From Amedibacterium intestinale (GTDB lineage Bacteria; Bacillota_I; Bacilli_A; Erysipelotrichales; Erysipelotrichaceae): a stretch of DNA of 64,000 nucleotides. Within the stretch, counting starts at the first letter, position 1. Each line of letters starts with the position of its first letter. The notes below the pieces were generated by a model. That model was not told the DNA's origin, did no database searches, and saw nothing but the letters and a program-made list of their open reading frames with translations. Below, piece by piece: positions 23,827 to 31,310 of this stretch. Location of the stretch: NCBI RefSeq assembly GCF_010537335.1, contig NZ_AP019711.1, positions 1,736,001-1,800,000 of the forward strand, read 5' to 3'. Made by a program: the position numbers and the translations under genes.

Positions 23827-24050
23827 AAAATCTCTCATCAAAGGACGAGAGATTCGTGTTACCACCTTTTTTCGTGTACAAATGTACACCTCAAATCCTT
23901 AACGCTAGATTCACGACTTTTTCTAATCATTCAAAAAAGCGGTTCCAGGGCCATTTTCCTGTCATTTCTTCATACAGATTTCCACCTGCCATCTGTTCTC
24001 TAGGTTTTCAAAATGCAGTACTCTTCCTGTCATTACCTTTGATTTTTACC
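23827..24050 (-). promoter_or_regulatory. T-box riboswitch leader of metG, Met specifier
   Basis: The minus strand carries the T-box motif AAGGTGGTAACACGAA (around 23853-23868), directly followed by a terminator (ATCTCTC / GAGAGAT then TTTTT, 23827-23852). Upstream, Stem I contains GAAATGAC, with ATG (complement of 23963-23965) in the specifier position, matching methionine. Uncharged tRNA-Met would stabilise the antiterminator and allow metG transcription. Motif, terminator and downstream gene agree; the exact stem boundaries were not folded. Confidence 0.88.
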
Positions 24051-24133: not shown

Positions 24134-25006
24134 TTATGATTTCCTTCTGTTTAACCTATCTAAAATCTTAGTTTTTAATTCTTCATCAATCTCTAAAATC
24201 TCCATTGCTTCTTCTCTGCTCAAATTCATATTTTTTTCTATTTTTTCTATAGCCTTGAGCATTGTATTTACTTCTCCTTCAACTATACCTGCTTCTTTCC
24301 CTTCTGCCAATGCCTCTACTCTTGTCTTTCTTTCATAATATTCAATTACATTACACATATCATCCATTGCCTCCTCTAGTTCTCTTGTCATTTTTATTTT
24401 ATATCTTTCTTCTAATATCTGCTTTTTCTTAGCTACTTCCATATCCGATACAAATAAAATGTGTAAAAATCTGATGACTTCATTTTCACTGTCTTCTTTT
24501 AATGGATATACCATAATGATATTCATCAATGTCTTATCCTCTTTTTCAGGAAATGTATGTACTTCTATCATTTCCTCTTTTTTCACATCCATATCCATTA
24601 CGATCCATATGGAATACACTTCTTTCATTTCTCCATACCTTGATTTCATAAACCCTTCTGACTTATTCTTTTGTTTAGCTATCAACCTACTCACATAATA
24701 AACTGCTCTGTTCATCAATGGATACCCTGGATTTTCTTTGCTTTGTGCTTCTATGTTTACAAATATCTTCGTTTTAGGAAGTTTTACTTCATAGAGTTTA
24801 TCATACTCTATTCTTGCACCTGGTATGCTTTCATCTACGATATTGCTTTCTTTTATACCGCAATATCCCTTGTTATCTAAGATAAGTTTTTCAAGTATAT
24901 AACTTACTACATCTTTATTTGACAATACTCTTTTACAGTAATCATCAAACGCCTTTCCTTTTCCTCTAATTTCAACTGCACTACCCAATTCTGTATTTTC
25001 TATCAT
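24134..25006 (-). CDS. Rpn-type PD-(D/E)XK nuclease family transposase
   Basis: 290 residues of the PD-(D/E)XK transposase/nuclease family related to RpnA-D. The core appears as YDKLYEVKLPKTKIFVNIEAQ (Asp and the E-x-Q catalytic pair) followed by PLMNRAVYYVSRL and a variable helical C-terminus with RKTRVEALAEGKEAG, usual for the family. Members cut DNA and promote RecA-independent recombination, and often occur in many copies in Erysipelotrichia. ATG 25006 follows AGAGGTG. No inverted repeats mark an element. A second, more distant member is at 36646-37629. Confidence 0.85.
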   Translation of the reverse strand: MIENTELGSAVEIRGKGKAFDDYCKRVLSNKDVVSYILEKLILDNKGYCGIKESNIVDESIPGARIEYDKLYEVKLPKTKIFVNIEAQSKENPGYPLMNRAVYYVSRLIAKQKNKSEGFMKSRYGEMKEVYSIWIVMDMDVKKEEMIEVHTFPEKEDKTLMNIIMVYPLKEDSENEVIRFLHILFVSDMEVAKKKQILEERYKIKMTRELEEAMDDMCNVIEYYERKTRVEALAEGKEAGIVEGEVNTMLKAIEKIEKNMNLSREEAMEILEIDEELKTKILDRLNRRKS

Positions 25007-25157
25007 TCTTTCACCTCTTTTATCTTTCATAATTAATTACGATGCAAAAGGATGAAAATACAAATTTATCTGTTATTTTTTACTTTTTCTTCTATATCAC
25101 TATAGCACAATAAACATTATCCTAGTATATACCTTATGGGATATTCATGTTATAAAA

Positions 25158-25217: not shown

Positions 25218-26699
25218 TTACATTTTTGCGCGAATCAAAGATATAATTAAACTTTCTGCTTCTTCCGGGCAATGACAGTCTCCTAATTCATTTCCCTGTT
25301 TTCTACTTGTAAATCCACTTCCACAAGTAATTAACAATTTATCTTTTTGTGCATAGCGCAATAAATCAGCCATCTGTTTTTTATTATATGCCGACTGGAA
25401 CACTTCAATTCCTTCGATTCCATGAGAGAGAATATCCTTCATCAGTTCTTCATCATGCAGGAAATCAGCTCCATCCGCAAGTACCGCTACACCATTTGTT
25501 AATGATATGACATCCAAGACATCCTGCAAAGGAGGACATTTCATCATCACATAACAAGGTTTTCCATATGCAAAATATTCCTGACATAAAATTTCTACTG
25601 CTTTGTTCATTTCCATCTTGCGATATGGCTTTAATACTTCACATTCATCGTATAAGCTAGAATTTAATACATGTCGCACCAGTAATCTTCCAGAAATCCT
25701 TTGGAAGCGATTTGTATGCAGCAGGCGTTCTACAGGAATTTGTACACCTAATATCTTTTCAAATCTTCTAACTCTTTCTAAGCTGGCATTTCTTTCATTT
25801 ACCAAGCCATTATTTTCAATTGTTGTAAATATATCATTCTTATAATCAATAAAATATCCTAGAACACGCACTCTTCTGCCTTTATATTCTGCCCCTATTT
25901 CAATACCAGGAACATAGTTAATATTATAAAGCTTGCTCATATTTACAGCAAGAGCATTTGCTTTTACACTGTTCCAGTCTGTAATAGAAATCGTATGAAT
26001 TCCTTCTTTTGCAGCCATCTGGAAAATTTCTTCCACATTATATTCCCCATTAGCACTGAAGTTAGAACGTACCCTTAAATCAATGTGATTGCGAGGATAT
26101 GATACTTTAGAAACAGATTCCACTTTCTTTTCTGTAACAGGAGCCTTCACTTCCTGTTTACTTTCTATTGTTTCAGCTTCTACTCTAATCAGATATGTTC
26201 TTAATAAAAAGTCAATCAGATTGCGATGCTTTTTATCCACCAGGAAAATTATTCCATTTAATGCCCAATATACAAATACTCCAATAACATTTGTAAAAAT
26301 CATCAGCACAACAAAAGGAATTGCATTTCCTAAAACCTCATGCATCAAACAAACTTTCTGACTTGCTCTTTTACCATTTTCACGCATTATCGCAAAACCA
26401 AACTGATACATTCCAAATGTGCGTCCTTTTGTTTTCTTGATAATAGAACTATTAAAGAAAAAGATAGACAACCCCATCAAGACTCCTACAATAATATTGG
26501 CAATAAAGATTGCGGTAACACTTAAAAGACTACCCAGCACAGCTAAAAGAATAAGGTTCCACAACATCATTGGAGATAACATTACAGAAACATCTAACGC
26601 AAAAGAAAGAAAACAATCCCAGTAGTCCTTTCTTTGAAGATATGCGACATTAGAAGGTGTTCTGCTTTCTTTTGTCTTACTTTTTATATTTCTACGCAT
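25218..26699 (-). CDS. RDD membrane domain fused to a PHP-like domain with lost metal ligands
   Basis: 493 residues. Residues about 20-175 form an RDD-type membrane domain with four to five helices. Residues 205-493 follow the PHP phosphoesterase fold (IDLRVRSNFSANG, ISITDWNSV, YVPGIEIGA, VRVLGYFID, VAVLADG, CGSGFTS). Compared with canonical PHP motifs (HxHTxxSDG, TDH, VHxLGY, VLAHP, GSDxH), the His and Asp ligands are replaced, while GIE remains. The domain is therefore probably non-catalytic, perhaps ligand-binding or scaffolding. It lies 2 bp after the small zinc-ribbon membrane gene, so the two form an operon. Confidence 0.8.
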   Translation of the reverse strand: MRRNIKSKTKESRTPSNVAYLQRKDYWDCFLSFALDVSVMLSPMMLWNLILLAVLGSLLSVTAIFIANIIVGVLMGLSIFFFNSSIIKKTKGRTFGMYQFGFAIMRENGKRASQKVCLMHEVLGNAIPFVVLMIFTNVIGVFVYWALNGIIFLVDKKHRNLIDFLLRTYLIRVEAETIESKQEVKAPVTEKKVESVSKVSYPRNHIDLRVRSNFSANGEYNVEEIFQMAAKEGIHTISITDWNSVKANALAVNMSKLYNINYVPGIEIGAEYKGRRVRVLGYFIDYKNDIFTTIENNGLVNERNASLERVRRFEKILGVQIPVERLLHTNRFQRISGRLLVRHVLNSSLYDECEVLKPYRKMEMNKAVEILCQEYFAYGKPCYVMMKCPPLQDVLDVISLTNGVAVLADGADFLHDEELMKDILSHGIEGIEVFQSAYNKKQMADLLRYAQKDKLLITCGSGFTSRKQGNELGDCHCPEEAESLIISLIRAKM

Positions 26700-26701
26700 A
26701 C

Positions 26702-27016
26702 TTATTTATTCTCCTTTTTCTTTTCATATTTCAGTATCCCTATTTTTACGCAAAGCCATGTAAACAGCGCAGCCAAAACAAAAGATACTCCAAGAATATA
26801 AATCGTCTTTATGTCAATAGATGCATCTTTTAAAAAATGCATACTTGTCATAACAGCAAATATAACACATAAAAATGGAATAAACATATATCGCTTTATA
26901 CTTTTCTGATCAAGACAATAAGCCTGATGACAACCAGGACAACATATATGTACATTCCCTCTAATTATTTTCATAGAAATAGGCGTATGACAGTTTTCAC
27001 AAATATGAATCATCAT
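26702..27016 (-). CDS. Small zinc-ribbon membrane protein
   Basis: About 104 residues. The N-terminus has CENCHTPISMKI...CCPGCHQAYC, two CxxC-type pairs that would bind one zinc ion. Two membrane helices (YMFIPFLCVIFAVMTSM and IYILGVSFVLAALFTWLCV) and a lysine-rich tail follow. ATG 27016 lies after AAAGG; a GTG two codons upstream is an alternative. It is the first gene of a two-gene unit with the RDD-PHP fusion. Function unknown; the pairing suggests a shared membrane role. Confidence 0.7.
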   Translation of the reverse strand: MMIHICENCHTPISMKIIRGNVHICCPGCHQAYCLDQKSIKRYMFIPFLCVIFAVMTSMHFLKDASIDIKTIYILGVSFVLAALFTWLCVKIGILKYEKKKENK

Positions 27017-27163
27017 AAGCACACAACCTTTCTTTTATAATTATACTACACTTTCCAAAATTGTATATGCATAAAAATTATATGGAAATCGTAAGAAATT
27101 TCCTCTTGCGCATAATCAATACTTAAAGTATCATACTATGCATATGAAAAAAGGAAGGTGTCT

Positions 27164-27655
27164 ATGAAACATTATCTCACTCGCAAAAAATGTTATAAGT
27201 TTTTCCTGTCCTTTTTCTTTATTCTATATATTTTTGTTTTATTGTATTTGTTGTTTTTTGCTTCTGAATTTTCCAGAGATCATATATCCATGATGAATGG
27301 AAACTACCTGGAAACTCTTCGCCAGCAATGGAATAGCGCAACCAATCTTCATCCCTTTAAAACCATCCATACTATGATACAGATTTATCACAATCCTTAT
27401 TATTCCAACATGATTGCACATACCAATCTATATGGAAATATTATCATCTTTATGCCGTTTTCTTTTTTTCTTCCACAATTATTTCCTTCTATGAAAAAAG
27501 CAGCTCATTTTCTACCTTTTATGCTTTTTCTTATTATCCTCGTAGAGATTTTACAGCTTTTTACTTTTAGCGGATCTATGGATATTGATGATGTCATCTT
27601 AAATTATTTTGGTGTACTCATTAGCTTCTACATATGTAAAAAAGTCTTTGTTTAA
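27164..27655 (+). CDS. VanZ-family membrane protein
   Basis: 163 residues with about four membrane helices. The VanZ signature is visible: TNLYGNIIIFMPFSFFLPQLFP and the ending EILQLFTFSGSMDIDDVILNYFGVLISF (acidic DIDD before the last helix). VanZ from Tn1546 gives low teicoplanin resistance; most chromosomal homologues have unknown function. ATG 27164 follows AAGGAAGGTG. The stop codon lies inside a 16-bp terminator stem shared with the convergent hydrolase gene. No other van genes are present. Confidence 0.88.
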   Translation: MKHYLTRKKCYKFFLSFFFILYIFVLLYLLFFASEFSRDHISMMNGNYLETLRQQWNSATNLHPFKTIHTMIQIYHNPYYSNMIAHTNLYGNIIIFMPFSFFLPQLFPSMKKAAHFLPFMLFLIILVEILQLFTFSGSMDIDDVILNYFGVLISFYICKKVFV

Positions 27656-27684: not shown

Positions 27685-29925
27685 TTATTTATTTCCTTTT
27701 ACCCAAATAGGACTTGACCATGCCTGATGTTCATCTTCCTGTGTTACTCTTACATAATAGAAATCCTCTTGTTCATTCACTTCTTTTGTAAAGGTAAAAT
27801 CACATTCTCTTCCATCCGATACTTTTTCTTCAATTACTTTATTGTTACATAATACTTCTACTTTTAATTTATCCGTTCCTAAAACACTTACTGTAAAGTC
27901 GACACTGCTATGTACTGGTTTTTCTACGATTTGTCCCATTTCTTTTCCATCGCATTTAAAAGATACTAAAATACCAGCTCCACTTGTACCATACATAAAG
28001 CGATCATATAAATTATCCCAAATATTTTCATTATTTAACTTATCTACAAAGGAAATCGTGATACCACCTTCAACCCCATGTTCCATCTGGTGTGAGTCAC
28101 TGCCTGCAGTAAAACCTAAATGGTATCCTTTTTCCAAAGCATCCTGTACACTGCATCGTTCGATCTGCATATTATTTTTTGTATATTTGGAATAATTTCC
28201 ATAGTACTCAAATGGTGCATGTCTAGAGAATATTTCTACCATTCTTTGTACTTCTTCATCATGGAATGCCCAATCCGTTGCGGCACTTACAAGTTTCCAG
28301 CTTGCGGCAGGATGATGCGGGAATGCCATTGCCTTGTATTGTTTAATACTTTCAAACAATCGATCCGGTGTCATACCGCCTTCATCCCCTGAACGATAGA
28401 TTTCTCCTTCAAATCCTTTATAATAGATATTTTTATGTCCAAAGTCATAACGATATTCATTTGGTGTCCATTCATAAGCTAAAAGCGTAGCCATTTTATT
28501 TTCCACGTTAAATAATTGAGAAGTCGTACGAATCCATTCCCATTCTGATTGACTTAACCAGTCTGGATAACAATCATGATCCGTTAAAGCTGTGAAGTCC
28601 AATTTTCCCCATACTTTGGCGGAATTAAAATACTGATCGATTTCTCCAACACCATCACTCATACCACTTTGTCCATGAATGTCTCCATACACTGGGAATT
28701 TGCCAGCATATCCATTTTTCTTGATCCATGTTTTTACTTCTTCATCATCTATGCGATCTAATGTTTTATTAGCTTCGATTGGACGTGTAAAAGGGTCACT
28801 TACTTTTTCTGCTTCCAAGTCAACATAAGAATCATATTCATCTTTGTTTAGCCATGTATACACAACTTTCGCATTTCGAATAGGTTTATGTCCATTTTGG
28901 TTTCCATATTGCCATGCCAAGTGAATCGTACCATCCTCGTCGATAAGAACTCTCTGGTTTGAGGCAAAACTATTTTCATCATACGTAAATACAACCGGAT
29001 CAGACCATTTATTTTCATAATCATAGTGTCTTGCATGCAGTTTTGTTTTTCCCCATGAATAAGAAAAAGCTACTTCTCCTTTAGCATTTGATGAAATCGC
29101 AATATCTTCATACCAGTCAATACCTCTGGCAAAACAGCAAGATTCTTCTACATTTGCTTTTCCATCTTTTTCAAATACGACTGCACTATGATAAGAGAAA
29201 TCAGAACCATGATTGAAATCATACCAGCATACAAGAGCTTTATCCTTTAAAGATGCCAGTAATGGCTGTGTTGCCCATGCTGTTTTTGAAGTATTTACTA
29301 CTTTTTCCTCTGTCCAAACTTGATCTTTACATGCTCTTACAATCACATCGTAAGTTGTTCCGTTAAAAGAATCATATGCCACATAGATTGTATGATCTTC
29401 TGTGATACAAATACTTGGACGATACGTTTCTTTTGAAGTGGAAACCACCTGTACATCATGAATACCTTCTTCATCAATCGTTGATAAAACAATTTCACCC
29501 GCATTGCTGGATTGACGATTCCATAACAAATATACAATTCCATCTTTTGCATACAGACATGGATAAAACAAGGCTTCTCCCTCTTCCGCACAGTGAATTT
29601 CACCATACACTCCATTTTCATAGCTTCGATAGTAAATTCCCCATACCTGATTTCTACATTCTCCCCATGCATACCAAATTTGATTTCCACTAGAAACACA
29701 TACAGGTTTTAAAGCCTCGCCTTCACCGGAAATTCTCTCAACTTCACTAAAGGTATCCTTTTCTTGATTTAAAACACCTGCAACAATGCAGTCATGTCCA
29801 TCTTTATATTCCTGATAACAAACATACATAGTTCCATCTTCTGCTTTTGTTAAAGAAGGATACTGTGCACTGCTTTTAATAATATCGCTTACTTCTTTTG
29901 AATATTTTTGATTTAATAAATTCAT
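27685..29925 (-). CDS. Beta-propeller plus PHP-type (DUF3604-like) metallohydrolase
   Basis: 746 residues without signal peptide. Residues 1-370 hold at least six repeats of the kind GxxYVxWxxxxxxxxxIxxxxxxxG (QYPSLTKAEDGTMYVCYQE, RPSICITEDHTIYVAYDS), a sialidase-like or Kelch-like propeller. Residues 410-690 are a PHP-type domain with intact ligands: YGDIHGQSGMSDG (412-425), ALTDHD (446-451), FPHHPA and GSDSH. A beta domain ends the protein. It is the third gene after a Crp-type regulator and a GPH symporter, so it probably hydrolyses the imported compound in the cytoplasm. The substrate is unknown. ATG follows AGGAGG. Confidence 0.8.
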   Translation of the reverse strand: MNLLNQKYSKEVSDIIKSSAQYPSLTKAEDGTMYVCYQEYKDGHDCIVAGVLNQEKDTFSEVERISGEGEALKPVCVSSGNQIWYAWGECRNQVWGIYYRSYENGVYGEIHCAEEGEALFYPCLYAKDGIVYLLWNRQSSNAGEIVLSTIDEEGIHDVQVVSTSKETYRPSICITEDHTIYVAYDSFNGTTYDVIVRACKDQVWTEEKVVNTSKTAWATQPLLASLKDKALVCWYDFNHGSDFSYHSAVVFEKDGKANVEESCCFARGIDWYEDIAISSNAKGEVAFSYSWGKTKLHARHYDYENKWSDPVVFTYDENSFASNQRVLIDEDGTIHLAWQYGNQNGHKPIRNAKVVYTWLNKDEYDSYVDLEAEKVSDPFTRPIEANKTLDRIDDEEVKTWIKKNGYAGKFPVYGDIHGQSGMSDGVGEIDQYFNSAKVWGKLDFTALTDHDCYPDWLSQSEWEWIRTTSQLFNVENKMATLLAYEWTPNEYRYDFGHKNIYYKGFEGEIYRSGDEGGMTPDRLFESIKQYKAMAFPHHPAASWKLVSAATDWAFHDEEVQRMVEIFSRHAPFEYYGNYSKYTKNNMQIERCSVQDALEKGYHLGFTAGSDSHQMEHGVEGGITISFVDKLNNENIWDNLYDRFMYGTSGAGILVSFKCDGKEMGQIVEKPVHSSVDFTVSVLGTDKLKVEVLCNNKVIEEKVSDGRECDFTFTKEVNEQEDFYYVRVTQEDEHQAWSSPIWVKGNK

Positions 29926-29960: not shown

Positions 29961-31310
29961 TTAATTATTGTTTCTCTTTTCTAATTCTGCCGCAATTTCC
30001 TTAGTCTTTTTTGGAGTAATTTCATAAAAATACAATGCCAAAATCGTTAATACGAACAATACTGCCGGTATGAAGAAACGTAAATTTATAATCATCTGCA
30101 ATGCTTGTGCACTTTGTTCCTGATTTGCGATAAATCCAGCAAATCCAAGTAAGATTCCTGATAAAAAACCTCCAATAGCTGTTGCACATTTTTGAATAAA
30201 GGTAAATGTTGCGGTAAATAACCCATTTGGCTGTACCCCATACTTCCATTGTGCAAAATCAATACAATCAGGAACCATTGCCCATGGCAATGCACTTACC
30301 AAACCATAGAAAAATCCAAATACAACCAATAAAACACTTAATCCAACCATCCCCATCGTCGGCATAAAACCAATGATGAATAAAGGAATTGCACACAATA
30401 TAGATGTATACATAAATAAGTTACGTTTTCCAAATTTTGCTTCAAGCTTAGGTAAAACCATAGAGGCAAGGATACTTGCACTCATTGTCACAAACATAAC
30501 CGTTGGTATCCAGTTCTCTTTATGTAATACATATTTGAAATAATACATATTCGCAGAATTTAGTAATGTGTTTGCTAAAAATGATAATCCAAATGCTACG
30601 ATAAGAAGTAGTAATGGTTTTGTTTTAAATAAAACAGAAATATCTTTTCCTGTTGTTTTTTCCTTTGTTTTTTTGATGGAAGCATCGATACACACATCAT
30701 GTGTTTTTGCACCACTTGCCGCTACCCAGATCAACAAAGTTGAAACAATTCCGATCAATGCCCCAAAAGAAGCCCATCCTTTTTGTCCACCACCAAATGC
30801 ATTTACAATCGGAAGTGCAAATACACTAATGCATAAAACGGCTACCTGACACATCACACTTTTCCAAGAAATGATAATCGTTCTTGTATGTGCGTCTTTT
30901 GATAGTACCGGCACTAGCGCAAAATAAGGAATGGATACAATCGTTACAATAATGGAATATAAAATAAACACTGCATAAGCATAGATAACTTTCATACTTT
31001 CTGAAATCTGTGGCGAATAGAAAAGCACAAAAATTGCGACTCCTAAAACCGGTGCAAAAAACATTAACCATGGACGAAATTTCCCCCAGCGAGAATGTGT
31101 ACGATCGGCAATGATTCCCATCAAAGGATCTGTAATTGCATCTACAATTCTAGAAACCAGCATAATGCCCGCAACCGCAAAGGTTGTAATACCAAAAATA
31201 TCTGTTAAAAAGAAATTAAAATAGGTCATTACTAAATTTGTAACTAACGTTATCCCTAGTCCACCTAGAGAATATTTAAAAATATCAGTCATTAAGTTTT
31301 TCTCTTTCAT
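29961..31310 (-). CDS. GPH-family (MelB-like) sugar:cation symporter
   Basis: 449 residues, 12 predicted helices. The glycoside-pentoside-hexuronide signature is clear: SRIVDAITDPLMGIIADRTH followed by SRWGKFRPWL. Family members import glycosides or uronides with H+ or Na+. It lies 35 bases upstream of the propeller-PHP hydrolase and 15 bases downstream of the Crp-type regulator, so the three genes are one transcription unit. The transported compound is presumably the hydrolase substrate; which one cannot be told from sequence. Confidence 0.92.
   Translation of the reverse strand: MKEKNLMTDIFKYSLGGLGITLVTNLVMTYFNFFLTDIFGITTFAVAGIMLVSRIVDAITDPLMGIIADRTHSRWGKFRPWLMFFAPVLGVAIFVLFYSPQISESMKVIYAYAVFILYSIIVTIVSIPYFALVPVLSKDAHTRTIIISWKSVMCQVAVLCISVFALPIVNAFGGGQKGWASFGALIGIVSTLLIWVAASGAKTHDVCIDASIKKTKEKTTGKDISVLFKTKPLLLLIVAFGLSFLANTLLNSANMYYFKYVLHKENWIPTVMFVTMSASILASMVLPKLEAKFGKRNLFMYTSILCAIPLFIIGFMPTMGMVGLSVLLVVFGFFYGLVSALPWAMVPDCIDFAQWKYGVQPNGLFTATFTFIQKCATAIGGFLSGILLGFAGFIANQEQSAQALQMIINLRFFIPAVLFVLTILALYFYEITPKKTKEIAAELEKRNNN

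Follow-up and report, generated by a model that had tools for sequence, protein, structure and literature searches.

The window analyzed here, a stretch of 64,000 nucleotides from the genome of the gut bacterium Amedibacterium intestinale, encodes a protein (P0001) that joins an RDD membrane domain to a PHP domain with almost all of its metal ligands replaced, and we put at roughly 0.68 the probability that P0001 is a membrane pseudoenzyme whose PHP domain has a non-catalytic role, binding or regulatory, as a module of an RDD system. This combined statement is scored as it is because the pseudoenzyme part is its core: taken alone, it appears highly probable from the sequence that the PHP domain is a metal-free pseudoenzyme, and, if so, its use as a binding or regulatory module of the RDD membrane system would be slightly better than an even bet. 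A first-pass annotation of this DNA had proposed a membrane-tethered pseudoenzyme, a proposal now supported by the predicted fold, the disappearance of ligands that are essential in RNase AM, a graded loss shared with relatives, and purifying selection.

P0001 is read from the minus strand (Table 1), the plus strand at 25218–26699 being stop-rich in a reading-frame check. The annotated order, an RDD-type membrane region and then a PHP fold, was borne out by Pfam and by an AlphaFold model, with both Pfam assignments barely exceeding their cut-offs (for PHP, PF02811, 26.9 bits against 26.4, starting at residue 207). These are the only two Pfam domains in P0001, which is not part of a C-family DNA polymerase. 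The best full-domain NCBIfam match is to 3',5'-nucleoside bisphosphate phosphatase (NF041577, residues 205–475, E 1.5e-24), at 86.6 bits under a model cut-off of 400, and the intact orthologues, at 112–131 bits, likewise fall under it. Judged from its sequence, the PHP domain derives from a phosphoesterase that depended on metals and was of the nucleoside-bisphosphatase/RNase AM type; a chance PHP match was ruled out by the profile, fold and PDB matches. The RDD domain (PF06271) is matched by 49 of 49 members, with E up to 0.01. Both conserved Asp residues of the RDD family are kept in P0001 (D36 and D163), and the family Arg position is occupied by C29, being R or H in most relatives.

Table 1. 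Coordinates of the RDD-PHP gene, its domains and ligand positions, and neighboring features in the window
Feature	Position	Strand	Basis or remark
RDD-PHP protein P0001 (493 aa)	25218..26699	-	single open reading frame
RDD membrane domain, residues 28-165	26205..26618	-	Pfam PF06271, 28.5 bits vs cut-off 24.1
Linker, ~residues 173-203, low confidence/disordered in model	26091..26183	-	pLDDT <50 at 176-195
PHP domain, residues 205-493	25221..26087	-	model residues 204-493 superpose on 2YB1 at Z 26.4
Ligand positions 209 and 211, H209R and H211R	26067..26075	-	ligand map
Ligand position 217, D217N	26049..26051	-	ligand map
Ligand position 242, H242W	25974..25976	-	ligand map
Ligand position 267, Glu, sole one kept	25899..25901	-	ligand map
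Ligand position 278, H278R	25866..25868	-	ligand map; Arg in 41/48 degenerate relatives
Ligand position 409, H409D	25473..25475	-	ligand map
Ligand positions 462 and 464, D462G and H464T	25308..25316	-	ligand map
Upstream gene coupled to RDD-PHP, encoding a CxxC/CxxC protein of 106 aa that has membrane segments	26702..27022	-	ends 2 bases before RDD-PHP start
VanZ-like gene, divergent neighbor	27158..27655	+	PF04892, E 8.7e-24
T-box leader before metG	23838-24042	-	Rfam RF00230, 121 bits

Nine residues bind the three metals of a PHP enzyme. We mapped these nine positions via profile alignments to solved homologues together with published assignments (PMC9410882, PMC3666897). In RNase AM, His13, Glu72 and Asp255 form the alpha site, Glu72, His83 and His198 the beta site, and Asp20, His45 and His257 the gamma site (PMC9410882), in an order and spacing that match the nine-position table of polymerase PHP domains (PMC3666897) as well as the alignments to solved structures. 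The equivalent positions in P0001 are 209, 211, 217, 242, 267, 278, 409, 462 and 464, where the catalytic set H, H, D, H, E, H, H/C, D, H reads RRNWERDGT, with one ligand in nine kept, the alpha, beta and gamma sub-sites all broken, and Arg at three of the positions. Position 216 (now Ala) was rejected as the aspartate of the SDG motif in favor of 217 (now Asn), because intact relatives with S-x-D-G keep only the second Asp. Every motif quoted in the first-pass annotation is present in P0001 (IDLRVRSNFSANG, TDW, GIE, VRVLGY, VLADG and GSGFT), and its statement that nearly all expected PHP ligands are replaced holds, eight of nine differing from HHDHEHHDH. It had also stated that PHP catalysis needs these His/Asp residues; in the homologue RNase AM the D20A, E72A and D255/H257A mutations abolish activity (PMC9410882), and counterparts of residues essential there are gone from P0001.

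Whole-domain drift does not account for the loss, since 38 of 62 other positions conserved in intact relatives are kept against the single ligand (Fisher p = 0.006, uncorrected and for a protein picked for this feature). Seven of the nine ligands are also lost in an independent genome of the same genus (L007), which has R209, R278 and D409 in common with P0001, so the changes are not a sequencing error. Both a sequencing error and a pseudogene were ruled out on this ground and by the one open frame in a single-contig genome.

In the AlphaFold model of P0001, built with 48 sequences, the PHP part has a pLDDT of ~95 over most of its length and superposes on the PHP phosphoesterase 2YB1 with Z 26.4 and an rmsd of 3.2 Å over 268 residues at 18% identity. 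On the same structure an orthologue that has all nine ligands (L087, which is also the gene labeled L049) scores Z 26.4, with an rmsd of 3.0 Å over 266 residues, and from the equal Z we conclude that the predicted fold is unaffected by ligand loss. The annotated claim that the fold remains around the lost ligands agrees with this confident predicted barrel; as AlphaFold may favor the family fold, the model supports but does not prove that the fold is kept.

Full-length RDD-PHP proteins occur in 51 of 272 genomes of a single Erysipelotrichales family, that of the target, a 52nd match (G166) being PHP alone. An RDD query across the rest of the order found no RDD-PHP protein, and evenly drawn samples of the class and phylum gave no full-length match outside the family. 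Restriction of the fusion to this family, as judged from these samples, is therefore well supported, though not exhaustively. Named relatives, taken from one short-pattern search, include Amedibacillus dolichus, Holdemanella, Faecalicoccus, Absicoccus, Breznakia and Allobaculum. In the literature we did not find the fusion described; where both terms co-occur, the domains are treated separately. One genome (G039) carries, adjoining an intact RDD-PHP gene, an RDD paralogue of 411 aa (L145:3212-4447, minus strand) in which the PHP domain is replaced by a long Lys/Glu-rich tail.

Trees from which the ligand columns were left out place the RDD-PHP proteins in a single clade (support 100/97), and ligand substitutions are shared, in graded fashion, across 48 of the 51 members. 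The first-pass annotation had named orthologues with intact motifs as evidence against its reading; three such orthologues exist (L015, L017 and L049), but they branch early and so represent the starting state, which is no refutation of loss. The commonest degenerate pattern, HRDHERSDH (three lost), occupies a large clade; genus g51 has HHDHERxDH (two lost), a separate clade sister to intact L049 has HHxxETYDY (five lost), and the clade of the target, with four to eight ligands lost, is the most extreme of the family. The tree calls for a minimum of two changes between intact and degenerate states, which we take to be losses, the stand-alone relatives being intact, and ligand loss would then have arisen at least twice. 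One candidate explanation, that loss is permitted by an active stand-alone PHP paralogue, as in Pol III, gave no clear rule: the genome of the window encodes L002 and L003, two stand-alone PHP proteins that both have 9/9 ligands, but in G001, G054 and G015 a second PHP match was absent at the threshold used.

Not one of the 48 degenerate members has an intact beta site. Arg accounts for 70 of 171 ligand replacements among them. All 13 intact proteins (10 stand-alone, with slight variations in L002 and L003, and 3 fused) have the cap (insertion domain) stretch RxDxP..VNFYWD, which none of the 48 degenerate ones has; the cap thus changed together with the metals. All 51 RDD-PHP proteins have R309, and 49 of them have K/R at 303, against 0 of 10 stand-alone relatives; position 303 may correspond to RNase AM Arg107, which lines the 5'-phosphate pocket, but with one weak pairwise alignment this is only a lead. 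That the PHP domain is still catalytic, with one or two metals in a rearranged site and perhaps another substrate, we consider quite unlikely. Partly degenerate relatives long keep whole sub-sites (35 of the 48 have an intact gamma site and 17 an intact alpha site), and residual catalysis could hold for them; P0001, however, has all three sub-sites broken, with only E267 left and Arg at three positions, and it has lost residues essential in RNase AM as well as the cap motif.

The claim that the pseudoenzyme is kept by selection finds support in omega values of 0.02–0.08 for eight close pairs of degenerate PHP domains (usable NG86 estimates). In five of five pairs with both parts estimable by YN00, the PHP domain is more constrained than the RDD domain. 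For the target (L001) against its nearest relative (L007), the NG86 dS of 1.48 is near saturation and the omega of ~0.25 accordingly rough; as the target has no close relative with unsaturated synonymous sites, we infer constraint on P0001 from the relatives and from a PHP identity to L007 of 57%. Across the 49 aligned members, 23 columns do not vary at all, among them D207, S212, S215, D241, G265, L280, Y282, G460 and S461 directly beside the ligands, and conserved residues beside ligands are likewise a pattern of polymerase PHP domains (PMC3666897). Taken together, the degenerate PHP domains appear to be under strong purifying selection, P0001 by extension from its relatives. A functionless passenger decaying toward loss might be suspected from the extreme ligand loss in the clade of the target and from the one genome with an RDD paralogue that lacks PHP. 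We regard it as very improbable in view of the low omega values, the invariant columns, a target branch no longer than that of its sister (0.41 vs 0.35), and the absence of frameshifts or stops in the RDD-PHP genes of all 51 genomes.

A purely structural PHP brace, with no ligand or partner of its own and an RDD part unstable without it, as proposed for Pol III, would agree with a fold kept while ligands were lost and with the lowered stability of Pol III PHP mutants (PMC3666897). It is unlikely here: the long disordered linker between the domains makes mutual bracing of RDD and PHP less likely, the RDD paralogue in G039 exists without any PHP domain, and the PHP domain is the more constrained of the two parts in all five comparable pairs.

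The genomic neighborhood offers candidate partners. The annotated pairing with a zinc-ribbon membrane protein is real and recurs in eight genomes (that of the window and those with L008, L010, L011, L044, L046, and intact L015 and L017); against the TIGR04104 zinc-finger family the 106-aa CxxC protein scores 25.3 bits, under the cut-off of 45, and its relatives 20.6–30.6 bits. As the pair also stands beside intact genes, pairing most likely predates ligand loss and was later dropped in other lineages. The VanZ-like gene adjoins RDD-PHP in four of six target-clade genomes (that of the window, G001, G044 and G007) and is a neighbor in that clade only. According to a recent lipocone survey, the VanZ-RDD fusion is among the commonest VanZ architectures and is tied to lipid modification and signaling at the cytoplasmic face (PMC12419801). 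With VanZ and CxxC neighbors missing in many orthologues, neither is a universal partner. Downstream, metG follows RDD-PHP in 31 of 38 loci and, having its own T-box in the window, is probably controlled separately; a function inferred from this neighborhood was rejected on that ground, and we take the arrangement as synteny only.

Several further genes were observed at these loci. Between RDD-PHP and metG in the window lies a 298-aa orphan (24134-25030, minus strand) with no Pfam or NCBIfam match, not seen at that place in the relatives examined, which may resemble mobile proteins of the Rpn/PD-(D/E)XK type. The window also encodes another PHP protein, unrelated to P0001 and 746 aa long (27685-29925, minus strand), which belongs to the CehA/McbA family (83.9 bits vs cut-off 80), has motifs that look intact (GDIHGQSGMSDG, LTDHD, FPHHP and GSDSH), and adjoins a transporter-like gene (29961-31310). 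Intact RDD-PHP genes (L015 and L049) follow parA-parB, directly or after the CxxC gene (L147:4183-7353, plus strand, and L148:6169-9628, minus strand; genomes G282 and G025). RDD-PHP is preceded in the large clade by a surface-type protein, secreted and of low complexity, whose length varies greatly, from 217 to 734 aa (L076:4615-5817, L094:3647-5773 on the plus strand, and 16 more loci).

A preserved domain and staged loss in relatives suggest that evolution keeps the PHP domain for something other than its original chemistry. Lacking metals, the PHP domain of P0001 would be unable to hydrolyze phosphoesters, and Arg at former ligand-His positions (R209, R211 and R278) may stabilize the empty site by charge, as the sequence and the precedent of E. 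coli Pol III suggest. Lys/Arg-rich loops would place the domain on the cytoplasmic side, where it could act as the non-catalytic binding or regulatory module of the RDD membrane part, which may work with the coupled CxxC membrane protein and, in the target clade, probably also with VanZ. A bolder version, in which a phosphoesterase, once fused to RDD, was converted repeatedly into a sensor of anions or nucleotides that binds no metal and gates or signals to the RDD/CxxC-protein/VanZ system, with Arg at the metal positions and the cap K/R303-R309 pair kept, is speculative and on balance rather doubtful.

Dead PHP domains are, to our knowledge, known mainly from inside DNA polymerases, and the RDD-PHP family provides a second, membrane-tethered setting. 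As its living relatives span 9/9 to 1/9 ligands with loss at least twice, the route from enzyme to pseudoenzyme can be read stepwise; a broken beta site and a missing cap motif are common to every degenerate member. For RDD domains, whose role is still unclear, the links to VanZ and the CxxC membrane protein give a concrete handle.

P0001 shares the RDD domain and both conserved Asp residues with an RDD family that includes the Halobacillus RDD Na+/H+ antiporter (PMC5996927), but has C29 for the family Arg and is fused to PHP. The VanZ-RDD fusions of the lipocone survey have the RDD-VanZ link in common with P0001, whose genes are divergent neighbors and unfused, and the survey's passage on these fusions describes no PHP domain (PMC12419801). 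The closest fold and sequence relatives of the PHP domain are the Cv1693 3',5'-nucleoside bisphosphate phosphatase (2YB1) and RNase AM/Rnm (7UG9, 9ETK), at Z ~26 and 18–22% identity; these are soluble trinuclear enzymes, whereas P0001 keeps one ligand. The pseudo-PHP domain of E. coli DNA polymerase III alpha, like that of P0001, has kept the barrel and lost ligands, with Arg at ligand position 1 (R10 in Pol III, R209 in P0001), an aromatic residue at position 4 (F44 and W242), and conserved ligand-flanking residues in both (PMC3666897). Among polymerase PHP domains, six of the nine positions have Arg as their most frequent substitute, and the fold stays intact when the metals are lost (PMC3666897). 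The Pol III domain lies inside a replicative polymerase and lacks five of the nine ligands; that of P0001 lacks eight, is attached to an RDD domain in the membrane, and falls in the bisphosphatase/RNase AM branch. The P0001 family is like in kind to the dead PHP domain of Pol III, but in a new architecture.
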